Program-made: the position numbers and the translations under genes | Shown: positions 2,302-16,992 of the stretch, one piece after another | How the letters are laid out: every line of letters starts with the position of its first letter | Numbering within the stretch: position 1 is the stretch's first letter | NCBI GenBank assembly: GCA_018061265.1 | Contig: JAGOUM010000009.1 | Coordinates: 1 to 64,000, forward strand | DNA: 64,000 nt | Source: Rhodoferax sp. | Lineage (GTDB): Bacteria > Pseudomonadota > Gammaproteobacteria > Burkholderiales > Burkholderiaceae_C | Direction of reading: 5' to 3' | Notes under the pieces: generated by a model | Database searches by the model: none | The model's input: the letters and a program-made list of their open reading frames with translations, nothing else | What the model was told of the DNA's origin: nothing

Positions 2302-2826
2302 ATGAAAAACAAGATTCTGCGATTTAACGACGGCCTTTATCTGGTCTGCATCTGGGCCTCGGGCCTTTCAGTGCTGATCATGTCACTGATTGTTCCCTGG
2401 GGTATTTTTGCGCGTTATGTGCTGGGAACTGGCTCACCGTGGCCCGAGCCGGTGGCGGTGATGCTGATGGTGGTGTTCACGTTTTTTGGTGCCTCGGCCG
2501 GCTACCGGGCGCACTGTCACATCGCGGTGGCCATGGTGACCGAGCGTTTGCCCAAGCCGGTGCAGCCGGTGTTGGCGATTGCGATGGAGATTCTGATGTT
2601 GGCGGTGGCCCTGTTTGTCATGGTTTACGGCACCAAGCTGTGTCTGGAGACCATGCATCAGTCCATCGGCCAATTGCCCTGGATGCCGGTTGGCGTGACT
2701 TACCTGCCAGTGCCTCTGGGTGGCTTGACCACCGTCATTTTTGTGCTGGAGCGCCTGGCGTTTGGGCCGCAGGGCCTGCGCGAGGTGGTGACGTTTGACC
2801 ATGAAAAGAAAGAGCAGGCCGCCTGA
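2302..2826 (+). CDS. TRAP transporter small permease (DctQ family)
   Basis: Small membrane subunit, 174 residues with four predicted membrane segments (about 16-38, 50-68, 90-112, 130-150). It carries the family pattern of a cytoplasmic N terminus followed by a W-G-I-F-A-R-Y segment and the later P-WPEP motif. The ATG at 2302 starts a typical MKNKILRFNDGLY terminus. A GTG at 2263 in the same frame would add 13 residues but falls inside an intercistronic hairpin, so 2302 is preferred, although its ribosome site is weak. The stop codon overlaps the start of the large permease by one base (TGATG), indicating translational coupling. Confidence 0.88.
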   Translation: MKNKILRFNDGLYLVCIWASGLSVLIMSLIVPWGIFARYVLGTGSPWPEPVAVMLMVVFTFFGASAGYRAHCHIAVAMVTERLPKPVQPVLAIAMEILMLAVALFVMVYGTKLCLETMHQSIGQLPWMPVGVTYLPVPLGGLTTVIFVLERLAFGPQGLREVVTFDHEKKEQAA

Positions 2827-4109
2827 TGGACGCTTTTGTTTTACTCGGCTCGTTCCTGGTGCTGATTTTGCTGGGCATGCCTGTGGCTTACGCGATGGGC
2901 TTGGCAGCGCTGATTGGTGGCTGGTACATCGATATTCCACCCGATGCCATCATGATTGCCATCGCCGGCGGGGTGAACAAGTTTTCACTGCTGGCGATTC
3001 CGTTTTTTGTTCTGGCCGGAGCCATCATGGCCGAAGGCGGTATGGCGCACCGGTTGGTGGCGTTTGCCGGCGTGCTGGTTGGCTTTGTGCGCGGCGGCCT
3101 GTCCATCGTCAACATCCTGGCGTCGACCTTTTTTGGTGCCATATCCGGCTCCTCCATGGCCGATACCGCGTCGATTGGTTCGGTGCTGATTCCTGAAATG
3201 GAGAAGAAAGGTTACCCGCGAGAATTTGCCACGGCGGTCACCATCAGCGGGTCGGTACAAGCCATCTTGATTCCGCCCAGTCACAACGCGGTGATTTATT
3301 CGCTAGCTGCGGGTGGGTCGGTGTCGATTGCGGCGCTGTTCCTGGCTGGGGTCTTGCCCGGCTTAATCTTAGGATTGACGCTGACCGTGATGTGCCTGTT
3401 CATCGCCAAGAAGCAGGACTTCCCCAAAGGCCGTGTCATCCCCATCAAAGAGGCGATGAAGATCGTGGTTGATGCCCTTTGGGGTTTGATGACCATTGTC
3501 ATCATTCTGGGCGGCATTCTGTCAGGCATATTTACTGCAACGGAATCGGCGTCGGTGGCCGTGATCTGGGCTTTTGCGGTCACCATGTTTGTTTACCGCG
3601 ACTACAAATGGAACGAGTTGCCCAAGTTGGTACATCGCACTGTCAAGACCTTGTCCATTGTGATGATCCTGATCGGCTTTGCCGCCAGCTTTGGTTACAT
3701 CATGACGCTGATGCAGATTCCGCAGCAAATCACCGGGCTGTTCACCAGTATTTCGGACAACAAGATTGTGGTCCTGCTGATGATCAACGTGCTGCTCCTG
3801 CTGCTGGGCACGCTGATGGATATGGCACCGCTGATTCTCATCATGACACCCATTCTTCTGCCTATTGTTACGAGTCTGGGTGTCGATTCGGTTCACTTTG
3901 GCATGATCATGATGCTGAACCTGGCCATGGGCCTGATCACACCGCCTGTGGGCAGTGTGCTGTTTGTCGGTGCTGCGGTCGCCAAATTGCCTATTGAACA
4001 AGTGGTCAAAGCCTTGAACCCGTTTTTTGTCGCCTTGTTTTTGGTGCTGATGGCCGTCACGTACATTCCTGCCATTTCATTGTGGCTACCAGGGCTATTG
4101 CTCAATTAG
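2826..4109 (+). CDS. TRAP transporter large permease (DctM family)
   Basis: Main membrane channel subunit, 427 residues, hydrophobic throughout with about 12 membrane segments. DctM signatures are visible: the N-terminal GMPVAYAMGLAAL region, the ISGSSMADTASIGSVLIPEM segment after about residue 100, and the repeated PPSHNAVIYSLAAGGSVS and TPPVGSVLFVGAAV segments that mark the two scaffold/transport repeats. Start ATG overlaps the preceding stop. Together with the two upstream genes it forms a complete TRAP system that uses a sodium or proton gradient and sits between two mannonate dehydratases. Confidence 0.95.
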   Translation: MDAFVLLGSFLVLILLGMPVAYAMGLAALIGGWYIDIPPDAIMIAIAGGVNKFSLLAIPFFVLAGAIMAEGGMAHRLVAFAGVLVGFVRGGLSIVNILASTFFGAISGSSMADTASIGSVLIPEMEKKGYPREFATAVTISGSVQAILIPPSHNAVIYSLAAGGSVSIAALFLAGVLPGLILGLTLTVMCLFIAKKQDFPKGRVIPIKEAMKIVVDALWGLMTIVIILGGILSGIFTATESASVAVIWAFAVTMFVYRDYKWNELPKLVHRTVKTLSIVMILIGFAASFGYIMTLMQIPQQITGLFTSISDNKIVVLLMINVLLLLLGTLMDMAPLILIMTPILLPIVTSLGVDSVHFGMIMMLNLAMGLITPPVGSVLFVGAAVAKLPIEQVVKALNPFFVALFLVLMAVTYIPAISLWLPGLLLN

Positions 4110-4119
4110 GGTAAGTCGC

Positions 4120-4150
4120 TTCTGCCGCCAAGGAAGCTTGAGCGGCAGAA
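4120..4150 (+). promoter_or_regulatory. Perfect 9-bp inverted repeat after the TRAP genes
   Basis: TTCTGCCGC at 4120-4128 is exactly complementary to GCGGCAGAA at 4142-4150, with a 13-base loop containing AAGCTT. It lies 11 bp after the permease stop and about 105 bp before manD. There is no T-run, so it could be an RNA-processing hairpin, a weak terminator/attenuator, or a protein-binding dyad controlling manD. Confidence 0.45.
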
Positions 4151-4254
4151 ACTATCTCCAAACGGGTCGGCAAGCGGTCACTCAAGCCGCTCTGTAGGAC
4201 ACTGATCCAGCCCGACCACGGTACTTGGTTGACTGAAAATTCAGGAAATTTCGC

Positions 4255-5463
4255 TTGAAGATCGTGCAAATTCAGAGCATCGTGACGTGCCCGGGTCGCA
4301 ACTTTGTCACTGTCAAGATCGTCACCGACGAAGGGGTTTCTGGGCTGGGAGATGCCACCCTGAACGGACGCGAGCTGGCGGTCAAATCCTACCTTGAAGA
4401 TCACGTCTTCCCGTGCCTGATTGGCCGGGACCCGCGCAACATTGAAGACATCTGGCAATACCTGTACCGGGGTGCCTACTGGCGTCGTGGCCCGGTCACC
4501 ATGACGGCGATTGCCGCCATTGACATGGCGCTGTGGGATATCAAAGGCAAACTCGCGGGCATGCCGGTCTATCAGCTACTCGGCGGCAAGAGCCGTGACG
4601 GCGTGATGGTGTATGGCCACGCCAATGGCCGCGACCATGCGGAAGCCATCGATGCCGTCCGTCAGCACATTGAAGAAGGCTTCAAGGCGATTCGGGTGCA
4701 ATCTGGCGTGCCGGGTTTGGCCAAGACTTATGGCGTTGGCAAAGGCAAAGGTTTTTATGAGCCGGCTGAAAAGGGCTTGCCACCCGAAGAGCCCTGGGAC
4801 ACCGCGCTGTACCTGCGCCATACCCCCGAGCTGTTTCGCAAGGTGCGTGAAGCGGTTGGTTTTGACTACCACCTGCTGCACGATGCGCACCACCGCCTGA
4901 CCCCCATCGAGGCCGGTCGCCTGGGCAAAGACCTTGAGCCCTACCGCATGTTTTGGGTGGAAGATGCCACCCCCGCTGAAAACCAGGAGGCTTTTCGGCT
5001 GATTCGCCAGCACACCACCACGCCGCTGGCCGTGGGTGAAATCTTCAACTCGATCTGGGATTGCAAAGACCTGATCAGCGAGCAGCTGATTGACTATATC
5101 CGCTCCACCATCGTGCATGCCGGTGGTATTACCCATGTGCGGCGCATCGCCGACTTTGCCGCCCTGTACCAGGTGCGCACCGGCTTTCATGGTGCCACTG
5201 ATTTGTCACCGGTATGTATGGCCGCTGCGGTGAACTTTGGCTTGTGGGTGCCTAACTTCGGCATTCAGGAGCTGATGCCACACACACCACTGACCAACGA
5301 GGTCTTCCCGCACAACTATCGCTGCGAGGATGGTTACCTGGTGATGGACGAGGTGCCGGGTCTGGGTGTCGAGATCAATGAAGAACTGGCAGTGAAGTAC
5401 CCGTATGAGCGGGCGTACCTGCCGGTGGCCCGCTTGCGTGATGGCTCAATGTGGAACTGGTGA
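4255..5463 (+). CDS. manD: D-mannonate dehydratase, enolase superfamily (ManD/RspA type)
   Basis: A 402-residue mandelate-racemase-like enzyme expected to dehydrate D-mannonate (in some family members D-gluconate, or both poorly) to 2-keto-3-deoxygluconate. Residues that define ManD fall at the family's usual numbering: Arg147, Tyr159, metal ligands Asp210, Glu236 and Glu262, acid/base His212 and His312. Position 314 is Ala, which as I recall is the residue in high-activity ManDs rather than the Pro of weak ones. The start is a TTG at 4255 with AGGA eight bases upstream. It is not homologous to UxuA, 3 kb upstream, although both can catalyse the same step. Confidence 0.9.
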
Positions 5464-6029: not shown

Positions 6030-6917
6030 ATGCATAAGGTCCGCAGTGTAACGGCTGTGTTTGCAAAAACGCTGGTGTTGCTGGCACTGCTACTGGCCTG
6101 CTCGGCTTGCGCTTGGCTTGATACCAAGCAACGCCAGATCATCTACCGGCCCACGCCGGCACCAAGCGAGGGGACCGTCGCAGCTCTCCCCTTTTGGCAA
6201 ACCAATGATGCGCGGCTGTTCCTGAGGGTACCTGGGCATACAGAGCAACAAGTGGCGTTATGGTGGTTGCCCCACACCGACCCGTTGGCACCCACCTTGC
6301 TGTATTTACACGGCACTTTTCGCAACCTGCTTGGCAACCAGCCCAAGATCGAGGCCTTGCGCCAGGCCGGGTTTTCAATACTGGCGGTGGACTACCGTGG
6401 CTGGGGGCAAAGCACCTCGATCACACCGTCGGAGCAAAGCATCATTGAGGATGCCCTGTTGGCCTGGGGTGAACTGGTCAGGCGCGAGCCACGCACGGCC
6501 CAGCGCGTGATTTATGGGCATTCCATGGGCTCTGGCGTCGCTGTTGCGCTGGCCAGCCAGTTGAACAGCCCGGCAGATTTTGGCGCCTTGATACTTGAAT
6601 CCGCATTCACCAGCTTTGCCGACATTGCGGCCGAGGCAGGCTTCTGGGCCAGTCTGGCAATCCGCTTCAATCACGAGCGATTTGCCTCTATTGATCGCAT
6701 CACCCGCATCAAGGCACCGCTATTGATGTTGCACGGCGCACTGGATCGAACGGTGCCGATGCTGTTGGGCCAGCGCCTGTTTGCTGCTGCCAATGAACCC
6801 AAAGAATGGGTCATGATCGGTGCGGGTCAGCACAGCGACCTGCATCGGGTGGGGCAACCCACCTATCAGGAGACTATCGCGGCTTTTAAGTCCCGCTACC
6901 TGTCACAGCCCCAATAA
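6030..6917 (+). CDS. Alpha/beta hydrolase, lipoprotein-like (BEM46/ABHD13-type fold)
   Basis: Serine hydrolase of 295 residues. The N terminus has a hydrophobic segment ending in LLLACSACAW, which contains lipobox-like cysteines, so it is probably anchored in a membrane. The catalytic triad is visible: nucleophile Ser in YGHSMGSGVA, Asp in LHGALDRTVP and His in GAGQHSDLH. The oxyanion strand is LLYLHGTFRN. Substrate is unknown; relatives include peptidase-like and esterase-like proteins. The ATG at 6030 is chosen because it gives a normal signal; an upstream in-frame ATG at 5973 would extend into the divergent gene. Its end overlaps the convergent HAD gene by 15 bp. Confidence 0.82.
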   Translation: MHKVRSVTAVFAKTLVLLALLLACSACAWLDTKQRQIIYRPTPAPSEGTVAALPFWQTNDARLFLRVPGHTEQQVALWWLPHTDPLAPTLLYLHGTFRNLLGNQPKIEALRQAGFSILAVDYRGWGQSTSITPSEQSIIEDALLAWGELVRREPRTAQRVIYGHSMGSGVAVALASQLNSPADFGALILESAFTSFADIAAEAGFWASLAIRFNHERFASIDRITRIKAPLLMLHGALDRTVPMLLGQRLFAAANEPKEWVMIGAGQHSDLHRVGQPTYQETIAAFKSRYLSQPQ

Positions 6918-7526
6918 GGAGAGTTCGGCCTGCAGCTGTTGTGGTGACTCAAAATGGATGCCCCTCCAACCCAGGGACTGGGCAACATGCACATTGGCCT
7001 TGAGATCATCAACAAAAACCGTATGTGCCGCAGGCAGTTGATACCGCTCCTGCAACATCTGATAGATCAAAGGGTCAGGTTTGATGTGTTTGACATCCCC
7101 GGAAAACACGCCCCCGTCAAACCAGCGCAGGAAAGCAAAGCGCTGCTCCAGCACGCGTGCATAAGGTACTGGCATGTTGGACAGGTAATACAGACCGGTT
7201 ACCCCGTCGGACGAATCACGTCGCTGGCGCAGTTGTTCAAGCAGCAACAAGGTGCCTTCAATCGGCATAAGCCGCTCGCCGATGCCATGCACCAGCTCGT
7301 GCATGGCATCCAGCGGCAGGCTTAGTCGTTGGGCCGTGCGCTGCACCACCTCGTCTGCCTGTAGCAAACCCTGGTCAAAAGCGTGCCAGTCGGCGTGGCC
7401 AAAAACCTGATGGGCCAGTTGTTTGGCAGCGTCAACACTGTCAGCACGCTGGGCGAAAACCTGTTGAATCAGCGTGGCCGGCTGCCAGGTGAAAACCACG
7501 GCACCAAAGTCAAAAACGATATTCAT
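6903..7526 (-). CDS. HAD-IA family hydrolase (YihX/glucose-1-phosphatase-like)
   Basis: A 207-residue haloacid-dehalogenase-fold phosphatase. Motif I reads FDFGAVVF, where the second Asp of the usual DxD is Gly; this D-x-G form is found in the YihX group, whose E. coli member hydrolyses alpha-glucose-1-phosphate. Motif III is KPDPLIYQ and motif IV is FVDDLKANV. The ATG at 7526 is chosen because residues before it do not belong to the fold. It is the last gene of the minus-strand run afuA-afuB-afuC-tal-pgi, 29 bp after pgi, so a sugar-phosphate substrate is plausible. That substrate is inferred from context and motif only. Confidence 0.85.
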   Translation of the reverse strand: MNIVFDFGAVVFTWQPATLIQQVFAQRADSVDAAKQLAHQVFGHADWHAFDQGLLQADEVVQRTAQRLSLPLDAMHELVHGIGERLMPIEGTLLLLEQLRQRRDSSDGVTGLYYLSNMPVPYARVLEQRFAFLRWFDGGVFSGDVKHIKPDPLIYQMLQERYQLPAAHTVFVDDLKANVHVAQSLGWRGIHFESPQQLQAELSLLGL

Positions 7527-7555
7527 GACGGTCGATCTATGGACTGCGGGGCATG

Positions 7556-9124
7556 TCAGGCACACATTTGGGCCAGCAGGCCCGCTGTGGAGCCGTCCAA
7601 GCCGCCGATGTTGCCAGTTTTCAGGCGGGCTTCGACATCCTTGGCCAGCACTTTGCCCAACTCCACCCCCCATTGGTCAAAACTGTTGATTCCCCACAGG
7701 CTACCCGACACAAACACCCGGTGCTCCTGCAAAGCGATCAAGGCACCCAGGCTGCCCGGGCTGAGCTCGTCCAGCAGCAAGAAGGTGCTGGGTCGATTGC
7801 CTTTGAAGTTTTTATGCCCACCCGCGTCGGACTTGCCCAGCATCAGTGCCTGTGCCTGCGCCAACACATTGGCCAACAGCAATGTGTGATGGCCGCTCAG
7901 GTCGTGCCGGGGGTTCTTGACTGCCACAAACTCCACGGGCACCACGTCGGTGCCCTGATGCAGCATTTGAAAGTAGGCATGTTGGCCGTTGGTGCCGGGT
8001 TCACCCCAGACCACCGGCGCGCTGGCGAACGGTAGAACGGCACCATCGAGATCCACCCCCTTGCCGTTGCTTTCCATCTCCAATTGCTGCAAGTAGGCCG
8101 GGTACCGCTTGAGGGCACTGTGGTAGGGTGCCACGCTACGGCTGCCAAACCCGTGAAAATTGCGGTACCAGATGTCCAGCAGACCCAGCCGCACCGGCAG
8201 ATTACGCGCCAGCTCTGCGCTGCGGAAATGCTCATCCATCGCGTGTGCGCCGGCGAGAAAGTCCCTGAAGCCCTGGGCACCAATGGCAATCGCCAGCGGC
8301 AGACCAATGGCCGACCAGACCGAATACCGCCCGCCCACCCAGTCCCAGAATCCAAAGGTGGTGGTGATGCCAAAGGCATTTGCCGCCGCAACGTTGGTGG
8401 TGAGCGCCGCAAAATGACGGGCAACGTCGGTGCCACCCTGCGCCACAAACCAGGCTTTGGCACTGTGGGCGTTGGTCATGGTTTCGATTGTGGTGAAAGT
8501 CTTGCTGGCAATCAGGAACAGTGTGTGCTCGACCTCGATTTTCTTCAGTACCGCGGCCAGCTCATGGCCATCCACATTAGAGACAAAGTGGAATCGCTTG
8601 GTGGGTGTCACATAAGCGTCCAGTGCCAGCACAGCCATCTGGGGCCCCAGATCAGAGCCGCCGATGCCGATGTTGACCACATCGGTGATACCGTCGTCGG
8701 CCCGCAGGTTCTCGGCGTAAGCCAACATGGCGTCCAGCGTGGCGTGCACCTGGGCCAGCTCAGACGCTACATTACCAAGAGCTTCTCTGGCATGTTGCAT
8801 ATGCGCTAGAGGCGGATTTCTTAACAACCAGTGCATCACCTGCCGATCTTCTGTCGTGTTGATCTTGACACCGGCAAACATCGCGTCGCGGTGCTGCTCC
8901 AGTCCACTCTGTCGTGCCATTTCCAGCAGCGCCTGTTCTGTGGCCACATCCATGAGGTTTTTTGACAAATCAGCAAACACATAAGGTGCAGTCTGGCTCA
9001 GCGCGGCAAATCGACCGGCATCCGACGCAAATGCCGTTCGCAGATCAAACTCAAGACCGGTCTGTTCAAAGTGTTGTTGCAAAACGCTCCATGCGGGCGT
9101 GCGGTCGCAGCGGGTAGTCATCAT
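7556..9124 (-). CDS. pgi: Glucose-6-phosphate isomerase
   Basis: Interconverts glucose-6-phosphate and fructose-6-phosphate in the cytosol. The 522-residue protein has the PGI signatures: VVNIGIGGSDLGPQM for phosphate binding, the GGRYSVWSAIGLPLA block, and catalytic residues in the VWGEPGTNGQHAYFQ and HQGTDVVPVEF segments. Only 2 bp separate its start from the tal stop, so the two are co-transcribed. The stretch NPPLAHMQHAREALGNV, before VHATLDAM, coincides with a degenerate copy of a 50-bp repeat found elsewhere in the window (8774-8823). Confidence 0.97.
   Translation of the reverse strand: MMTTRCDRTPAWSVLQQHFEQTGLEFDLRTAFASDAGRFAALSQTAPYVFADLSKNLMDVATEQALLEMARQSGLEQHRDAMFAGVKINTTEDRQVMHWLLRNPPLAHMQHAREALGNVASELAQVHATLDAMLAYAENLRADDGITDVVNIGIGGSDLGPQMAVLALDAYVTPTKRFHFVSNVDGHELAAVLKKIEVEHTLFLIASKTFTTIETMTNAHSAKAWFVAQGGTDVARHFAALTTNVAAANAFGITTTFGFWDWVGGRYSVWSAIGLPLAIAIGAQGFRDFLAGAHAMDEHFRSAELARNLPVRLGLLDIWYRNFHGFGSRSVAPYHSALKRYPAYLQQLEMESNGKGVDLDGAVLPFASAPVVWGEPGTNGQHAYFQMLHQGTDVVPVEFVAVKNPRHDLSGHHTLLLANVLAQAQALMLGKSDAGGHKNFKGNRPSTFLLLDELSPGSLGALIALQEHRVFVSGSLWGINSFDQWGVELGKVLAKDVEARLKTGNIGGLDGSTAGLLAQMCA
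8774..8823 (+). repeat. Degenerate copy of the 50-bp palindromic element, inside pgi
   Basis: Read on the + strand, a GAGCTT is followed after 17 bp by GCGCTAGAGGCGGATTT. This is the same layout as the copies in tlyA and the second DUF294 gene (TAGCTG, 23 bp ending in GCGCT, then A-x-AG-x-C and an ATTT end). The right half matches well and the left half poorly. It is in the antisense orientation relative to pgi and reads through without a stop. It could be an old insertion or a chance match. Confidence 0.35.
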
Positions 9125-9126
9125 GG

Positions 9127-10074
9127 TCAGTTTCCTAGCAAGAGTTGGTCCAGCTTGATGGCGTCAAGGCAAAACGCCCGAATACCCTCGGCCAGTTTTT
9201 CAGTGGCCATGGCATCCTGGTTCAGGGCCAGGCGAAATTCGGGTTCGTTATAGCTTACATGGGGCAGATCCAGCTGTTGTGACTGTCTGGCATCCAGCGA
9301 CCGCACCAGAGGTAACTCACTGTGTGCCAGCGTGGCCAGCAGATCCGGACTGATGGTGAGCAGATCACAACCGGCAAGCGCCGTGATCTGGCCCACATTG
9401 CGAAAACTCGCGCCCATAACTTCTGTGGCAATACCGAACTTTTTGTAGTAATTGAAGATCTGCATGACCGACTGCACACCAGGGTCCTGGGCACCCGTAT
9501 GGTCCGCCTCGACCCAAGTTGGCCCGGCTGATTTTTTGTACCAGTCGTAGATACGCCCGACAAACGGCGAGATCAGTTGCACCTTGGCCTGTGCACATGC
9601 CACCGCCTGCACAAACGAGAAGAGCAGGGTCAGGTTGGTATGGATGCCACGGCGCTCCAGTGCAGCCGCCGCCGAGATGCCCTCCCAGGTCGCAGCCACC
9701 TTGATCAATACCCGGTCGATATGAATACCCTGCGCCTGATACAGCTCGATCAAACGCTCCGCCCGGGTGATAGTGGCGCTGGTATCAAAACTGAGCCGTG
9801 CGTCGACCTCGGTGGAAACCCGCCCCGGAATGATGGACAATATCTCGCAGCCAAAACGAACCAGGAGACGATCCATCAGTTCATCCAGCGCGCGCCCCTG
9901 ATACTGGGCCACGGTTTCGGTCATCAACGACCGGTACTCGGCCTTTTGAACCGCTTTAAGGATCAGCGAAGGATTGGTTGTAGCGTCCTGTGGCTTAAAT
10001 TCAGCCATTTGCAGAAAGTCACCGGTGTCTGCCACCACTGTGGTGAACTGTTTGAGTGCGTCGAGTTGATTCAT
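9127..10074 (-). CDS. tal: Transaldolase
   Basis: Transfers a dihydroxyacetone unit from sedoheptulose-7-phosphate to glyceraldehyde-3-phosphate in the non-oxidative pentose phosphate pathway. The 315-residue length fits the TalB class. The Schiff-base lysine is Lys125 in the [12 protein letters not shown] motif, with the N-terminal [11 protein letters not shown] block and a [14 protein letters not shown] segment. The ATG at 10074 gives the usual MNQLDALKQ terminus; an in-frame upstream start would add 16 unrelated residues. It lies 56 bp after the ABC ATPase gene and 2 bp before pgi, and its substrate sedoheptulose-7-phosphate is one of the ligands known for AfuA-type binding proteins. Confidence 0.96.
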
Positions 10075-10130
10075 GCCGCCATTATCCGGCGGCGATGTGT
10101 CAATCAAACCCGTTCTTGTCAAACGTCGGA

Positions 10131-11177
10131 TTACGAAGCCGCCACCACAGAGACTCCATGGTCCGCCAGCGTCAGGCCCACCTCGGCATCCAGGCTCAAC
10201 ACATCGGTCAGATCGGGCGAGACAACAAAGATCGGCCCCAGGCTGGTTTCAAAGGTGTACTCAAAAAAGCTGCCCAGATACGCGCGCTTGAGCAGCTTGG
10301 CAGTCAAGCCGGTGCCGTCGCGGTGAATATGCCAAGCTTCCGGTCGCACGGCCACTTTGACCTGACCGGCCGCCACCACTTGCCGCGCGGTGATCTGCAG
10401 TGGCCCCAGTTGCACACCACCGGCTGCATCGGCCACACCCGGGAACAGCATGGCCTCGCCCATAAACCCGGCAACAAACTCGCTGCCCGGGCGCTCGTAC
10501 ATGTCTTGCGGTGTGCCACGCTGGGCGATCAGGCCGTCGTTCATCACAATGATCTGGTCACTCACCGCCAGCGCCTCACTCTGGTCATGGGTGACATAGG
10601 CCACGGTGAGTTTCAGTCGCTGTTGCAGGCTACGGATCTCTTCACGCATGTCGCGGCGCAGACGCGCGTCCAGGTTGCTCAGGGGTTCATCAAACAGCAG
10701 GACGCCAGGCTCCAGGACCAGGGCGCGTGCCAGAGCCACGCGCTGCTGCTGGCCTCCCGACAACTCGCTGGGCAGGCGGTCGTCGTAGCCGACCAGACCC
10801 ACATTGCCCAAGGTTTCCACAGCACGCCGCTGTGCCTCGGTTTTTTCGACACCTGACATCTTCAGACCATACATCACGTTCTCCAGCACATTCATGTGCG
10901 GAAACAAGGCATAGCTCTGAAACATCATGCTGACATTGCGGTCGGCGGGCCCAAGTGTGGTGACGTCTTTGCCTTGCATCAGGATCTGCCCACCGGTCGG
11001 TGTTTCCAGACCGGCAATCATGCGCAGCACCGTGGTCTTGCCACAGCCAGAAGGCCCCAGGATGGTGGTGAGCGAGCCTTGCTCAATCTCAAAATTCACG
11101 CCTTTGATCACCAAGGGTGCGCTTTTGTCAATGCCGTAGCGCTTGGTGATGTTCTTGAATTCAACGCCGTAACTCAT
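10131..11177 (-). CDS. afuC: ABC importer ATP-binding subunit (AfuC/FbpC/PotA family)
   Basis: Energises the importer whose permease and binding protein are encoded just upstream. The 348-residue protein has Walker [10 protein letters not shown], signature [15 protein letters not shown], Walker [13 protein letters not shown] and the H-loop [12 protein letters not shown]-terminal TOBE-like regulatory domain follows from about residue 240. The ATG at 11177 has an AGGACC-type ribosome site; a start six codons upstream is less likely. By sequence alone this could be called a ferric, putrescine or sugar-phosphate ATPase. The phosphosugar reading comes from the gene neighbourhood. Confidence 0.9.
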
Positions 11178-11191
11178 GGTGTTTGGTCCTG

Positions 11192-13402
11192 TCAATGGGC
11201 TGCAATGGGCTTGAGTTTGACGCCCGCCTTGCGACGCCCCAGCTTGCGCTCTCCCACCAGAAACTGGATCAGCGCGATGGCCGCCGACATCAGGATGATC
11301 AGCACCGTGCAGTACGCCAGCGCGACACCATAGTCGCCATTGCCGACACGGCCAATGATGTAGGAGGTGGCCAGCTCATTCTCGGCCGTGACCAGGAAGA
11401 TCACCGCACTGACGGTGGTCATGGCGCGCACAAAACTGTAGACCAAAGCCGCCACCAGTGCCGGTTTGAGCAGCGGCAGCACCACATGGCGCAGCGTCTG
11501 GAAGGTCGATGCACGCAGCATGACCGAGGCTTCGTCCAGCGAACGGTCCAGTTGCTTGAACGCTGCGGTGCCGGCACGCACGCCAACCGGCAGGTTGCGG
11601 AACATGAACGACAGCACAATGATCAGCCCGGTGCCTGTGAGCTCCACCGGTGGCACATTAAAGGCCAGGATGTAGCTCACCCCCAGCACCGTGCCCGGAA
11701 TGGCAAACGCCAGCAAGGCAATGAACTCAAACCAGCCCTGACCGCGAAACTCGGTACGTGCCAGCAGGTACGCAATCAGCAAGCCGACGGCAGCGGTCAT
11801 GGGTGCCGCAAGGCCAGCCAGCTTGACTGTGGTGAAAAACGAATTCCACGCCGTGCCCGCCCAAACCAGGCCAAACTGACCCCACTCAAGCCCGAATGCA
11901 GTCTTGAAATGCGCCAAGGTCAAGGTGTAGTCCCGGCCCCAGGTCTGGACAAAACCGCCAGCAAAGGCAAACAGATACACCACCACCGTGAACGCCAGCC
12001 ACGGATACACAACAAAATTGAGTACGCGGCGCAGCCCGTCGGGCAGCGCCATGGGTATACCAGCGTCCCCTTTGCCACTGACGGTGGTGTAGTTTTGTTT
12101 GCCCAGCAGGCCACGTTGCAGCGCAAACACCGCCAAAGCGAACATGGTCAAAATCCAGGCCAGAGATGCCGCCTTGCCCTGATCGTATTGGGCACCCACA
12201 ATGGCAAAAAAGATGTCGGTGGACAGCACCGAGTATTGCCCCCCCACCACAATCGGATTGCCGAAGTCGGCAATACTCTCAATAAAGCCGACCAGAAAAG
12301 CATTGGCCAAGCCGGGCTTGAGAAGTGGCAAAGTGACGGTGAAGAAGGTTTTGCTGCGACTGGCACGCAGAGTCTGCGCTGCCTCTTCCATGCTCGGGGC
12401 CACACCCTGCACCACCCCGCGCATGATCATGAAGGCAATCGGGGTAAAGGCAAACAGCTGCGCAATCCAGATGCCAAACAGGCCATAAAACCAGCGTGTG
12501 GGCGGCATGTCAAAGGCGTATTCCAGAAACTGGTTGACTACCCCGGCGCGGCCGAACAGCAGAATCAGCCCCAGTCCGACCACAAAGGGTGGTGTGATGA
12601 TGGGCAACAAGGCGATGACCCGCAACGGCCCCTGCACCCGTGGTCCGGCACTGCGCTCGGCCAACAAGGCCATCATGGTGCCCATGACCACCGTGCCGGT
12701 CGCTGTCAGCAGCGCCAGAAACAAGGTGTTCCACGCCACACCGCAGCGCACGCCACCGGCCAGACAACTCAGGCCCCAAACCCGCTCATGGCCAATACGC
12801 TCAAAGATCGCCGATGCTGCCCAATGCCCTTCCTCATTGAGGAAAGCGCCATACAGTGCCTTGGTCACCGGAAAGGCAATAAACAACAGCAGCAGCACCG
12901 AACAGCCAAACACACTGGCGGCAATAAAAAGATCACCTTTGAAAAAGCCCCGGCGCGCCACGCCAAAGGCGGTGAGCATCACCAGCGACAGCAAGGCGAT
13001 AAATGCACCAATACCAATGCCATACTGATTGACAGACAGCTCACCGAACTGGGCATTCAGTACTGCAAAAGACCAGCCGCGCGCGCCGATCAGGAACCCG
13101 CTGACCAACAAGCCCAAAAAACCCAACAGGCCACCGGCCAGCAGCCAGTTGCTTTGGGACCGGCCCGCCGGCACCAGCAGGCCAACGGCAGCGAGCCCGA
13201 GCCCGATCAGGCCCAGACTCAGCCAGACGCGGCCGTGCACCAGCACCTGAACCAGCCCATTGCCGGTCTCAGCCCCGCCAAAAATCTGCGTCAGAACGCT
13301 GTACCAGGCGGTGTCCTGAATCGCATACCAAGGCAACAGCCCATAGGCCAGCAGGCCAACAATGAGCCAGAGGCGAATGGCCAGGTTCGGGCTTTTGCTC
13401 AC
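11192..13402 (-). CDS. afuB: ABC importer permease, two fused transmembrane halves (AfuB/FbpB family)
   Basis: A 736-residue inner-membrane protein with two BPD_transp_1 domains in tandem, so one chain forms the whole channel. Each half has its ATPase-docking EAA loop: EEAAQTLRASRSKT near the middle and DEASVMLRASTFQT in the C-terminal third, both followed by LPLLKP. Several extra N-terminal membrane segments precede the first half, as in AfuB. The start is a GTG at 13402, three bases after the afuA stop, so translation is coupled. A 14-bp gap leads to the ATPase gene. Confidence 0.92.
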   Translation of the reverse strand: MSKSPNLAIRLWLIVGLLAYGLLPWYAIQDTAWYSVLTQIFGGAETGNGLVQVLVHGRVWLSLGLIGLGLAAVGLLVPAGRSQSNWLLAGGLLGFLGLLVSGFLIGARGWSFAVLNAQFGELSVNQYGIGIGAFIALLSLVMLTAFGVARRGFFKGDLFIAASVFGCSVLLLLFIAFPVTKALYGAFLNEEGHWAASAIFERIGHERVWGLSCLAGGVRCGVAWNTLFLALLTATGTVVMGTMMALLAERSAGPRVQGPLRVIALLPIITPPFVVGLGLILLFGRAGVVNQFLEYAFDMPPTRWFYGLFGIWIAQLFAFTPIAFMIMRGVVQGVAPSMEEAAQTLRASRSKTFFTVTLPLLKPGLANAFLVGFIESIADFGNPIVVGGQYSVLSTDIFFAIVGAQYDQGKAASLAWILTMFALAVFALQRGLLGKQNYTTVSGKGDAGIPMALPDGLRRVLNFVVYPWLAFTVVVYLFAFAGGFVQTWGRDYTLTLAHFKTAFGLEWGQFGLVWAGTAWNSFFTTVKLAGLAAPMTAAVGLLIAYLLARTEFRGQGWFEFIALLAFAIPGTVLGVSYILAFNVPPVELTGTGLIIVLSFMFRNLPVGVRAGTAAFKQLDRSLDEASVMLRASTFQTLRHVVLPLLKPALVAALVYSFVRAMTTVSAVIFLVTAENELATSYIIGRVGNGDYGVALAYCTVLIILMSAAIALIQFLVGERKLGRRKAGVKLKPIAAH

Positions 13403-13405
13403 AAA

Positions 13406-14416
13406 TTAACGGGGCAGCGAGTTGACTTCTTTTTCCCACTTGGCAATCAGGCGCTTGCGCTCGGCGGACGCACCGTACTTGGCGTAGTCGTAATTGATGA
13501 ACTTGATCTTCTTGAAATCAGGCACGTTTTTGTCGACCTTGGCGGCCTTGTTGGAAGGCACCTGGAACTGTTTGGCCGCTGCGGCCATTTCCTGCGCCGC
13601 CGGGGTCAGCGCCCATTCATAGAACTTCTTGGCGGCCTCAAGATTGCGCGCACCCTTGATGATGCTCATGGAACCGATTTCAGCGCCGGTCCCGTCGGTC
13701 GGTGTGATCGCCTCAACCGGGAAACCATTGAGCTTTTCACCAGGTGCGTCGTGCACAAAGCTGATCGACACCGTGGTTTCGCCACGGGCCGCCGCCTTGA
13801 TCGGGCCGGTGCCACTTCGGGTGTACTGGCTGATGTTTTTGTGCAACTTCTTCATGTACTCAAATGCCTGGTCCTCACCCATCATCTGAACCAGCGTGGC
13901 CACCATGGTGTAGGCGGTACCGCTTGAGGCCGGGTTGGCCACCTGAATTTCGCCTTTCAAAGCGGGGTTGAGCAAATCGTTCCAGGTTTTTGGCACGGGC
14001 AATTTTTTCTTCGCCAGCAGTTCGGTGTTGTAACCAAAGCCCAGAGGCCCCGAATAAATGCCAACCGTGCGGTACTTGGACTGGGCTGCCTGTTGCTGGG
14101 CCCAACCTTGCAGTTGCGGCAGCGTGGCGGATTTGTATTCCAGCGACAGGCCTGACTCGGCCGCCTGCAGATGCGGGTCACCCGTGCCGCCAAACCAGAT
14201 GTCGGTCTTGGGGTTGTCTTTTTCAGCGATCAACTGGGCCAGCGCCTCACCCGAGCCTTTCATCGAGATATTGATCTTGGTGCCTGTCGTTTTGCCATAA
14301 ACGGTGCCGATCATGTTGCACCATTCGGCTTGCACCGAGCAAATCACGTTCACGGTTTGCGCCTGGACCACACCACTGGCGGCGGCCAAGGCCGAAACCA
14401 ACAACAACTTCTTCAT
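13406..14416 (-). CDS. afuA: Periplasmic binding protein of the AfuA type, probable sugar-phosphate binder
   Basis: A 336-residue extracellular binding protein with signal peptide MKKLLLVSALAAASGVVQAQ and a TAGGAG ribosome site. It resembles AfuA, long annotated as ferric-binding but shown for Actinobacillus and pathogenic E. coli to bind glucose-6-phosphate, fructose-6-phosphate and sedoheptulose-7-phosphate. Typical segments are CSVQAEWCN near the mature N terminus, GSGEALAQLIAEKDNPK and DIWFGGTGDPHLQAAE. The adjacent Tyr-Tyr pair that holds iron in FbpA proteins is absent from the whole sequence. It heads a run with tal and pgi and diverges from zwf-hexR, which supports a phosphosugar role. 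The ligand itself is inferred. Confidence 0.8.
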   Translation of the reverse strand: MKKLLLVSALAAASGVVQAQTVNVICSVQAEWCNMIGTVYGKTTGTKINISMKGSGEALAQLIAEKDNPKTDIWFGGTGDPHLQAAESGLSLEYKSATLPQLQGWAQQQAAQSKYRTVGIYSGPLGFGYNTELLAKKKLPVPKTWNDLLNPALKGEIQVANPASSGTAYTMVATLVQMMGEDQAFEYMKKLHKNISQYTRSGTGPIKAAARGETTVSISFVHDAPGEKLNGFPVEAITPTDGTGAEIGSMSIIKGARNLEAAKKFYEWALTPAAQEMAAAAKQFQVPSNKAAKVDKNVPDFKKIKFINYDYAKYGASAERKRLIAKWEKEVNSLPR

Positions 14417-14471
14417 AAAAACTCCTAGAAAAAATCAAAAGGGCACCAACACCATTGAACTGGCGGCACCC

Positions 14472-14502
14472 GTATAAGCTTGAGCGTCAGGCAATGTGTC
14501 AA
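14472..14502 (-). promoter_or_regulatory. Candidate sigma-70 promoter for the afu-tal-pgi run
   Basis: On the minus strand, TTGACA (complement of 14497-14502) and TTATAC (complement of 14472-14477) are separated by 19 bp, or by 18 bp to CTTATA. Transcription would begin near 14465, giving a leader of about 47 bases before afuA. The spacing is longer than ideal. Confidence 0.35.
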
Positions 14503-14599
14503 TTTCATGACTGTACTGCGAATTTCTTGACAAACACATCGGGGAAACGCCAAGTTTTTGACCATTCAGTCAGAAAGTTACATGAATTACACGAGAACA

Positions 14600-14614
14600 T
14601 GAAACTAAGTTACA
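14600..14614 (+). promoter_or_regulatory. Candidate HexR operator between afuA and zwf
   Basis: TGAAACTAAGTTACA is a near-palindrome: 12 of 15 positions match its own reverse complement, with half-sites TGAAAC and TGTAAC. It resembles published HexR sites built on TGTARY half-sites. It lies 46 bp before the zwf start in the divergent region shared with afuA, and hexR is two genes away. Two further TTACA motifs (14578-14582 and 14587-14591) lie just upstream. A TTGACC at 14558-14563 could be a -35 element for zwf, but no good -10 follows it. Confidence 0.45.
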
Positions 14615-14659
14615 GTTCGTCCTGTTTTTCCTGTTTTAAACCTCATTCCGCAAACCAAC

Positions 14660-16114
14660 ATGAGTTTTGACCTTGTTCTATTTGGCGGCACAGGCGACCT
14701 GACCTGGCGCAAACTGATGCCAGCCTTGTTCCAGGCCTTCAAACACGGCACGCTTCCCGAGGGTGCACGCATCATTGGTGTGGGTCGGGATGAACTCACC
14801 GACGAACATTACCGTGAACTGATCCACGGCCGTTTTACCCAGGTGGACCTGGCCAAACGCCCGACGCCCGAGGAGTTTGCGCGTTTCTGCCAGTTGCTTG
14901 AGTTTGTACGGATGGACCTCTCCAAACCCGAGCACTACACCTATCTGCGCGACAAACTCGCACAGCGCCAGGCCGATACCGTGGTGATGTATCTGGCCAC
15001 CGCGCCGAGCCTGTTCACCACCATTTGCGAACAACTCGCCGCGGCGGGCTTAAACACACCGCACACCCGCGTGGTATTGGAAAAGCCGCTGGGCCACGAT
15101 ATGGCAAGCAACCGCGCTATCAATCAGGCCGTTGGGCAAGTGTTTACCGAGCACCAGATCTACCGCATTGACCACTATTTGGGCAAACCTTCGGTCCAGA
15201 ATCTGTTTGCACTGCGCTTTGGCAATGCGCTGTTTGAGCCACTGTGGCGACGCGAACATATTGCCAACATCCAGATCACCATGGCCGAGGAACTGGGCGT
15301 GGAGAAACGCGGCGCGTTTTATGAGACCACCGGCGCCCTGCGCGACATGATGCAGAACCACGCACTTCAGTTGCTGTGCGCCATCGGCATGGAGCCGCCG
15401 ATCAACTCCCATGCTGACGCGATCCGCGACGAAAAGCTCAAGGTGCTGCGCAGCCTCAAGCCCTGGTCGGCTGAGTCTCTGGCGCAGGATGTGATCCGTG
15501 GTCAGTACAGCGCTGGGAGCATCAATGGCCAGCCCGTGCCAGGTTACCGCGAAGAGCTCGGCGTGACTCCCGACAGCCGCACCGAAACCTTTGTCGCGCT
15601 GCGCACCGAGATTTCCAACTGGCGCTGGGCGGGTGTGCCGTTCTACATCCGCACCGGCAAACGCCTGGCAGGTCGCGACGCGCGCATTGTGGTGAACTTC
15701 CGGCCCACACCCCACGCCATTTTTAACTCGCAGATTGGCATGGCCAACCGGCTGGTGATCAATCTGCAGCCGCGTGACGGGCTGGAGTTGCACCTGCTGG
15801 CCCAGGCCCAGGACAAACGACATCACAGCAGCATCCTGGCACCGGTGCAACTCGATCTGGACTTTGACAAACGCTTTGGAGCAGAACGCGTGGGCGCTTA
15901 CGAGCGGCTGCTGCTTGATGTGATTGATGGCCGGCTGAATCTGTTTGTACGCAGCGACGAGCAGGTTGAGGCCTGGCGCTGGGTGGAGCCGATACTCAAA
16001 CACTGGGCTGGCGACCCACAAGGGCCGCGCCCCTATGCATGCGGCAGTTGGGGGCCAAGCGCCACCAGCGCGATGATCGCCCGCGACGGCTTTTGCTGGA
16101 GTGAAGAAGCATAA
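14660..16114 (+). CDS. zwf: Glucose-6-phosphate 1-dehydrogenase
   Basis: Oxidises glucose-6-phosphate to 6-phosphogluconolactone with NAD(P)+, the entry to the Entner-Doudoroff and oxidative pentose phosphate routes. The 484-residue protein has the nucleotide-binding FGGTGDLTWRKL at the N terminus and the active-site RIDHYLGK at residues 169-176. The EKPLGHD block and the IRTGKRL strand also fit. The start at 14660 follows a short leader with a candidate HexR palindrome. It forms a pair with hexR, 29 bp downstream. Confidence 0.97.
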   Translation: MSFDLVLFGGTGDLTWRKLMPALFQAFKHGTLPEGARIIGVGRDELTDEHYRELIHGRFTQVDLAKRPTPEEFARFCQLLEFVRMDLSKPEHYTYLRDKLAQRQADTVVMYLATAPSLFTTICEQLAAAGLNTPHTRVVLEKPLGHDMASNRAINQAVGQVFTEHQIYRIDHYLGKPSVQNLFALRFGNALFEPLWRREHIANIQITMAEELGVEKRGAFYETTGALRDMMQNHALQLLCAIGMEPPINSHADAIRDEKLKVLRSLKPWSAESLAQDVIRGQYSAGSINGQPVPGYREELGVTPDSRTETFVALRTEISNWRWAGVPFYIRTGKRLAGRDARIVVNFRPTPHAIFNSQIGMANRLVINLQPRDGLELHLLAQAQDKRHHSSILAPVQLDLDFDKRFGAERVGAYERLLLDVIDGRLNLFVRSDEQVEAWRWVEPILKHWAGDPQGPRPYACGSWGPSATSAMIARDGFCWSEEA

Positions 16115-16143
16115 AAACACAGCCCAACTCAGGACACCCAACC

Positions 16144-16992
16144 ATGCTTGACCGAATCAAAGCCTCCTTGCCCTCGCTGGCTCCCGCTGAACAGCGTGTG
16201 GCCAAACTGGTCCTGAGCGACCCGCGCTCATTTGCACTGATGCCGGTGAGCGAACTGGCCGACAGAGCCCACGTCAGCAAACCCACGGTGGTGCGCTTTT
16301 GCCGCAGCGTGGGTTACGACGGGCTGTCGGACTTCAAGCTCAAGCTGGCCGGCAATGTCAGCGAAGGTGTGCCTTTCATCCACCGCAGTGTCGATGTCGA
16401 CGACAAGACCAGCGACATCATGGTCAAGGTCATCGACAACACGGTGGCGGCGTTTCTCAAGTACCGCAATGAAGCCTCGGCCAGCGCCATCGACAAAGCC
16501 GTTGCGGCACTGACAGCGGCTTACCACGCCGGACGGCGCATCGAGTTTTTTGGTGTTGGCAACTCGGGCGTGGTGGCGCAGGACGCGCAACACAAGTTCT
16601 TCCGGCTCGGCATCAATGGCGTGGCTTACAGCGATGGCCATATGCAGGTGATGAGCGCCTCTTTGCTGCAAGCGGGTGACTGCGTGATTGTGATCAGCAA
16701 CTCGGGGCGTACGCGTGACCTGATGGACTCCTGCGACATCGCCCGCAAGAACGGTGCGACCACCATCGTGATCACCGCCAGTGGCTCACCATTGGCCGCC
16801 GCCGGCGACATCCACCTGGCTGCCGACCACCCCGAAGGTTACGAGCGTTACAGCCCGATGGTGTCGCGCCTGCTGCATCTGATGATCATCGACATCGTCG
16901 CGACCTGCGTGGCGCTGCGCATTGGCAGCGAGAAACTGCAACCCTTGCTGCGTGAGATGAAGAACAACCTGCGCAACAAACGTTACACCTGA
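16144..16992 (+). CDS. hexR: HexR-type transcriptional regulator (RpiR/MurR family)
   Basis: A 282-residue regulator with an N-terminal RpiR helix-turn-helix (residues about 1-75, including DRAHVSKPTVVRFCRSVGYDG) and a C-terminal SIS sugar-phosphate-binding domain (about 120-265, with EFFGVGNSGVVAQDA and VIVISNSGRTRDLMD). HexR proteins respond to 2-keto-3-deoxy-6-phosphogluconate and control zwf and other central carbon genes. Its position directly after zwf, with a palindrome in the upstream divergent region, supports control of zwf and possibly of the afu-tal-pgi run. Confidence 0.92.
   Translation: MLDRIKASLPSLAPAEQRVAKLVLSDPRSFALMPVSELADRAHVSKPTVVRFCRSVGYDGLSDFKLKLAGNVSEGVPFIHRSVDVDDKTSDIMVKVIDNTVAAFLKYRNEASASAIDKAVAALTAAYHAGRRIEFFGVGNSGVVAQDAQHKFFRLGINGVAYSDGHMQVMSASLLQAGDCVIVISNSGRTRDLMDSCDIARKNGATTIVITASGSPLAAAGDIHLAADHPEGYERYSPMVSRLLHLMIIDIVATCVALRIGSEKLQPLLREMKNNLRNKRYT

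Follow-up and report, generated by a model that had tools for sequence, protein, structure and literature searches.

Previous work on AfuABC treated it as a system by which animal-associated bacteria take up nutrients. According to the original report, AfuA of Actinobacillus pleuropneumoniae holds the phosphate of its ligand through Ser37 and Thr150 and the sugar through His205, Asp206 and Glu229; mutation of S37 or T150 lowers binding, and mutation of H205, D206 or E229 abolishes it (PMC4546632). The same report gives dissociation constants of 23 nM for glucose-6-phosphate (G6P), 8 nM for fructose-6-phosphate (F6P), 57 nM for sedoheptulose-7-phosphate (S7P) and 960 nM for M6P. The discoverers used the His205/Asp206/Glu229 motif as their criterion for AfuA homologues and counted 121 alpha- and betaproteobacterial AfuA proteins among 268 homologues (PMC4546632); the occurrence of AfuA in betaproteobacteria was therefore already known. 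Two studies of the regulator HexR report repression of zwf and edd by the Pseudomonas protein, which KDPG releases (PMC5489143), and repression of pgi by the Vibrio parahaemolyticus protein, whose site is TGTAATTAAATTACA (PMC11906056).

Here we describe an afuABC locus in a window, i.e., a stretch of 64,000 nucleotides analysed as a whole, from a Rhodoferax genome of 4.24 Mb (261 contigs, 89.5% complete). In this window AfuABC is probably tied to the core regulator of sugar-phosphate use in free-living betaproteobacteria.

Organization of the locus

Open reading frames and domain scans confirmed the gene set, the coordinates and the tight minus-strand run divergent from zwf-hexR that had been described in the initial annotation. 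The run comprises six genes in the order afuA-afuB-afuC-tal-pgi-HAD, and zwf-hexR is divergent on the plus strand. The first gene, afuA (13406-14416, minus strand), encodes a protein of 336 residues that is, by homology, a periplasmic sugar-phosphate-binding protein. It is followed by afuB (11192-13402, minus strand), encoding a fused permease of 736 residues in which Pfam PF00528 (BPD_transp_1) matches two stretches, and by afuC (10131-11195, minus strand), encoding an ABC ATPase with PF00005 and TOBE_2 whose reading frame opens at a TTG and whose probable start is the ATG at 11177. Next are tal (9127-10122, minus strand; probable ATG at 10074), encoding a transaldolase (TIGR00874, 436 bits against a cut-off of 396), and pgi (7556-9124, minus strand), encoding a glucose-6-phosphate isomerase (PRK00179, 697 bits against 492). 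The run ends in a gene for an HAD-IA family phosphatase (6903-7529, minus strand), over the cut-off for both PF00702 and TIGR01509; the ATG at 7526 was preferred as its start, because a longer frame from 7673 would run into pgi. This phosphatase had been called YihX-like, a label that the domain scan does not support: the protein reaches 28.9 bits against PRK09456 (YihX-type glucose-1-phosphatase), far under the cut-off of 295. On the plus strand, zwf (14660-16114) encodes a glucose-6-phosphate dehydrogenase (TIGR00871, 555 bits against 401), and hexR (16144-16992) an RpiR-family regulator in which HTH_6 and SIS (SIS domain) are both over cut-off. Since the NCBIfam HexR model PRK11302 is narrow and the protein, at 253 bits, is under its cut-off of 296, we refer to it as a HexR-type regulator.

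With the likeliest start codons, the intergenic gaps on the minus strand measure 2 to 56 bp, and from afuA through to the HAD gene none of these gaps contains a terminator-like hit on that strand. For these two reasons, afuA to HAD is likely to form one transcription unit. The region contains roughly twice as many terminator-like hits as shuffled sequence does (17 versus 9.3), and a sigma-70 scan of positions 6700-14800 returned no promoter-like site, against 2.6 expected. The divergent gap between zwf and afuA spans 243 bp (14417-14659) and contains a predicted HexR-type operator, TGTAACTTAGTTTCA (14600-14614, sequence given for the minus strand), which lies 45 bp upstream of the start codon of zwf.

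Two side observations concern the surroundings. A weak terminator-like hairpin in the afuA leader (window 14444-14465, minus strand) is a possible attenuator. Adjoining the afu cluster, window positions 2826-5463 (plus strand) encode a protein that by eye resembles a TRAP large permease and then a ManD-type mannonate dehydratase (736 bits against a cut-off of 550), a pair that we regard as a separate sugar-acid locus.

The binding protein and its probable ligands

A phmmer search with AfuA against solved structures returned 8x1a (1.7e-84), AfuA 4r72 (2.4e-84) and P5PA 6wce (2.5e-74), and the best ferric protein at 7.2e-9. Modelling of the binding protein on AfuA structures, with a check of the contact residues, had been proposed in the initial annotation. 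Our model, built from 24 aligned relatives (pLDDT 90.9), matched G6P-bound AfuA (4r73) in Foldseek with an E-value of 1.0e-42, an rmsd of 1.3 and TM scores of 0.91/0.96. Ranks 1 to 6 were all AfuA or VcA0625, F6P-bound AfuA and P5PA were also matched, and the first ferric protein appeared at 4.9e-22. That is, the ferric proteins are weaker matches than ligand-bound AfuA, VcA0625 and P5PA by about 20 orders of magnitude in fold and about 75 in sequence.

The contact residues were mapped from the phmmer alignment, in which the chain numbering is shifted by two. All five are identical: S55 and T167 correspond to the phosphate contacts Ser37 and Thr150, and H222, D223 and E246 to the sugar contacts His205, Asp206 and Glu229. 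The complete set occurs in 85 of 94 aligned AfuA-like rows, namely those of the window, of E. coli, of the principal copy in each of 80 related loci, and of L109, L110 and L111; the other nine rows are second copies or remoter paralogues. The columns of the FbpA-type Tyr-Tyr iron ligands read Phe220-Val221, in agreement with the original observation that this pair is missing. Based on its sequence and modelled fold, we conclude that the binding protein is an AfuA. The five contacts kept, the nearest structures and the missing Tyr-Tyr pair also uphold the proposal that the importer takes up sugar phosphates rather than iron; AfuABC is very probably an importer of ready-phosphorylated sugars. 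The main functional argument for the imported ligands is that G6P, F6P and S7P fit the substrates of Zwf, Pgi and Tal, an argument weakened by the fact that the genes for these enzymes cluster without the importer too.

Among the alternatives, the one that survives best, though we consider it unlikely, is that the protein is an AfuA relative with another phosphorylated ligand, for example a phosphonate, pyridoxal phosphate or a different sugar phosphate. Specificity can shift at the 44-46% identity that the protein has to solved AfuA, second copies with changed contacts exist in related loci, and P5PA, which is 54% identical to AfuA, binds pyridoxal phosphate (PMC8427247). P5PA (6wce), however, has Ala at both the Asp206 and Glu229 positions, and so is without two of the five contacts kept in the window's AfuA, where Asp and Glu are found; and against TIGR03261 (PhnS2, 2-aminoethylphosphonate) AfuA scores 209 bits, far under the cut-off of 393. 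Less probable still is a role in phosphorus supply, in which phosphate would be freed from imported sugar phosphates by the HAD phosphatase. The minus-strand run does end in the gene for this enzyme, but the zwf/afuA gap contains no Pho-box-like site, the 8 matches in the window against 5.2 expected are at chance level, and the HexR-type site points to carbon control. Finally, an FbpABC-type importer of ferric iron is highly improbable, for although the fold is common to AfuA and ferric proteins, the best NCBIfam model for AfuC is the ferric ATPase PRK11432 (376 bits, under the cut-off of 496) and E. coli afuC is annotated as fbpC, 'ferric ABC transporter ATP-binding protein', the Tyr-Tyr columns here are Phe-Val, the AfuA contact set is complete, and another binding protein of the same genome (L005) does have Tyr-Tyr and matches a ferric protein structure at 9.8e-122. 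The E. coli label is of the kind foreseen by the initial annotation, which expected automatic annotation to call the locus iron transport. Iron-transport labels in the AfuA-type family are not to be trusted without a check of the contact residues.

Additional AfuA copies were observed in related loci. In four of them (L009:7955, L013:7783, L026:7985 and L027:7953), a second AfuA lies directly before afuA in the same slot; these copies are 66-69% identical to the window's AfuA and have Glu in place of Asp206, and that of L027 also has Ala for Ser37. Such a tandem pair gives one permease two binding proteins, possibly with different ligands. Remoter AfuA-like proteins, 48-63% identical (L073:2136, L085:4373, L106:6508, L107:5036 and L108:2262), have His205/Asp206 replaced by His-Asn, Ala-Leu or Phe-Gly. 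The copy in L106 is followed by TRAP-transporter-like ORFs (by eye) and has no afuB nearby.

Conservation of the neighbourhood

A search of 84,980 species genomes gave 245 loci; the 80 related loci are the best of these, and are biased to close kin. Among these best 80 of 245, afuB and afuC come after afuA in 69 of the 71 loci with enough flank, zwf is divergent from afuA in 58 of 72, and hexR lies behind zwf in 26 of 65; of 55 loci, 39 have both tal and pgi downstream and 47 have one or both. The arrangement is therefore not peculiar to one strain, and the conservation across Comamonadaceae and relatives that was to be surveyed is borne out. In L028, L030, L035 and L110, afuA is preceded by genes for an additional afuC-like ATPase and for a histidine kinase and response regulator; these two-component genes differ from the uhp-type system beside E. 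coli afuABC.

The distribution of close AfuA is patchy, not universal. Such proteins occur in 8 of 300 genomes of the order (E up to 1e-100), in 59 of 299 of the family (E up to 1e-140) and, at 70% identity or more, in 15 of 36 of the genus, i.e., the window's own genome and 35 others.

An optional cassette in an older frame

In 13 of these 15 genus genomes, afuABC, or the end of it, forms a contiguous stretch with pgi, G009 and G020 being judged from the contig that carries pgi. In G008, afuABC is divergent from zwf, but some 113 kb separate it from tal-pgi. G021 has an intact zwf/tal cluster that lacks afuABC; its afuABC is located elsewhere, accompanied by a second ATPase, a histidine kinase and a response regulator. 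G001, one of the 21 genus genomes without close AfuA, gave no PGI match. Zwf and tal are directly adjacent and divergent in 14 of the 20 pgi regions from genus genomes without close AfuA; they are 2.7 kb apart in L124, L121 has zwf beside pgi and no tal, and the retrieved stretches of L128, L132, L134 and L136 (the last at a contig end) do not contain zwf. No afuA was found in any of the 20 regions. Because zwf and tal stand divergent without afuABC in 14 of 20 regions, none of which holds afuA, we conclude that hexR-zwf/tal-pgi is the common frame and that afuABC is an optional insert between the operator and tal.

The initial annotation assigned tal and pgi to a locus for uptake and use of sugar phosphates; that they are dedicated to such a locus is not supported. 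In the genus, hexR-zwf/tal-pgi also occurs without afuABC, and 59 of the 60 relatives searched have a PGI. Hence tal and pgi are housekeeping neighbours of older standing, to which afuABC is an optional addition; the occurrence of tal and pgi without afuABC makes them weak evidence for the substrate of the importer. The only PGI match in the window's own genome is the pgi of the cluster. A missing glucokinase was considered as an explanation for the importer and rejected, since absence of PF02685 is general in the genus and unlinked to AfuA: this family is present in 5 of 36 genus genomes (3 of 15 with close AfuA, 2 of 21 without), and the own genome, at 89.5% completeness, has no match. The only ROK match there is a 413-residue protein whose N-terminus is DNA-binding-like by eye and which is probably a regulator.

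On a PGI tree of 34 rows, from which G001 and G004 were left out, the presence of AfuA needs at least seven changes, or three when well supported branches alone are counted. Quick trees of afuB and of the adjacent zwf were computed for 33 loci each, with one very long row in each (L061 for afuB, L074 for zwf). Monophyly of the genus (11 rows) is rejected by the afuB tree, with a log-likelihood 140.9 lower and an AU p-value of 1.4e-86, and is not rejected by the zwf tree (0.42 lower, p 0.49). The afuB genes of G016, G017 and G032 group with those of Variovorax PCZ-1, Caenimonas and Ramlibacter. Since afuB rejects genus monophyly and zwf does not, these trees suggest horizontal exchange of afuABC into the same slot. 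The conflict could alternatively stem from an old duplication followed by differential loss; exchange is the simplest reading.

Building on horizontal exchange, we tentatively propose, as a possibility that we hold to be somewhat doubtful, that the slot separating the operator from tal-pgi in Comamonadaceae and relatives may be a swappable import port, in which importers are exchanged horizontally into a fixed regulatory address. The variants would be different afuABC lineages, the tandem second AfuA with Asp206 changed to Glu (four loci), and the importer with its own two-component system. If this is true, a cell could change which phosphorylated sugar enters central carbon metabolism and leave its regulation unchanged.

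The predicted HexR operator

The site at 14600-14614 is the only one in the 64 kb window with at most one mismatch to TGTAAN5TTACA, having one mismatch. The chance of finding it in the gap is about 0.011 by mononucleotide shuffling, for a pattern and columns picked after the gap had been inspected, and a single palindrome is therefore weak evidence on its own. A looser first pattern for HexR, TGTARTNNNAYTACA with up to three mismatches, was not enriched in the window (32 matches versus 28.9 expected). A scan of the genome with the local form of the palindrome, allowing up to two mismatches, gave one exact site, that at 14600-14614; sites with two mismatches were at or below background (13 versus 32 for the reversed pattern), and none of ten other scan loci inspected lies before a recognised sugar gene.

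Comparison of relatives adds to this evidence. In the best 80 of 245 loci, 30 of the 58 zwf/afuA gaps hold a site with at most two mismatches, where shuffling gives 4.35. The palindrome occurs in 26 of 26 of these loci with hexR beside zwf and in none of 28 without hexR, and in three more its presence is accompanied by a sequence that stops short of the hexR position. The 28 loci comprise 26 from Variovorax, one from Caenimonas and one from Rhizobacter, so that the contrast of 26/26 with 0/28 is close to one evolutionary event. The palindrome is also found in 15 of 15 zwf/tal gaps without afuABC, i.e., those of 14 genomes without close AfuA and of G021, against 1.3 in shuffles. Most Variovorax gaps without hexR (e.g., L043 and L044) keep a different palindrome-like site, TGTAC[GT]AAAGCTACG, at which some other regulator may act.

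The window palindrome agrees with the published Vibrio HexR site TGTAATTAAATTACA (PMC11906056). A second predicted site in the same genome, AGTAATTTAATTACA (L115:1532-1546), is located some 17 bp upstream of the start codon of edd, with a shuffle chance of 0.0044; it is a directed find from inspecting the edd start, which the genome-wide palindrome scan had missed. The genome contains edd, split over two contigs, and an eda-type aldolase. In view of the predicted sites in the zwf/afuA gap and before edd, and of the parallels in the Vibrio and Pseudomonas studies, it is likely that zwf-hexR, afuABC-tal-pgi-HAD and edd together form a HexR regulon. The conserved operator-like palindrome supports, rather than shows, HexR control of the afu operon, which had been called probable.

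Proposed working and significance

Our best explanation of the whole, to which we give a probability of about 0.72, is a sugar-phosphate importer in a HexR-repressed afuABC-tal-pgi-HAD operon, present as a cassette in an older frame. It draws on gene content, homology, contact residues, the conserved palindrome, presence and absence in the same slot, and the tree conflict. AfuA would capture G6P, F6P or S7P, and AfuBC would import the captured compound, which the neighbouring enzymes could then use: G6P by Zwf and Pgi, F6P by Pgi and Tal, and S7P by Tal. The six genes would be transcribed as one operon from the divergent zwf/afuA promoter region. HexR would repress at 14600-14614 and be released when Entner-Doudoroff flux raises KDPG; as this would free the divergent promoters, uptake and use would be switched together. 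The cassette would have been set between the older operator and the older tal-pgi operon and, within the genus, repeatedly lost, regained or exchanged.

If afuABC is indeed under a core sugar-phosphate regulator, it follows that import of dissolved sugar phosphates pays off for bacteria living in water, sediment and soil. A ready comparison is offered by closely related genomes, some of which carry the cassette at this address and others not. In the literature listings searched and the papers cited, we found no report of a HexR-tal-pgi linkage or of an optional cassette, although a Comamonadaceae HexR regulog may already list the operon. What we did not find described is the regulatory and evolutionary setting of parts that are themselves known, and its novelty is not proven.

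Comparison with known systems

The five contacts, the fused permease and the ATPase found here are shared with the AfuABC systems described in Actinobacillus pleuropneumoniae, E. coli and Citrobacter (PMC4546632). Identity to the E. coli proteins is 47.7% for AfuA, 42.9% for AfuB (618 columns) and 52.1% for AfuC (307 columns). The Vibrio cholerae protein VcA0625, whose structure 8x1a bears the title 'periplasmic G6P binding protein', is 44% identical to the AfuA described here (rmsd 1.2, TM 0.91/0.96). P5PA (6wce; PMC8427247) has the fold in common with this AfuA at 42% identity and differs in two contact residues. The regulatory side resembles the central-carbon HexR regulons of Gammaproteobacteria, which likewise have hexR beside zwf and a 15-bp site of the TGTAA-N5-TTACA type. 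An importer operon as predicted HexR target is particular to the present locus; the portions of the HexR literature examined name none for betaproteobacteria. Finally, E. coli afuABC comes after a response regulator, a MASE1 histidine kinase and uhpC, whereas in the window afuABC is located between zwf-hexR and tal-pgi, with a predicted HexR-type operator.
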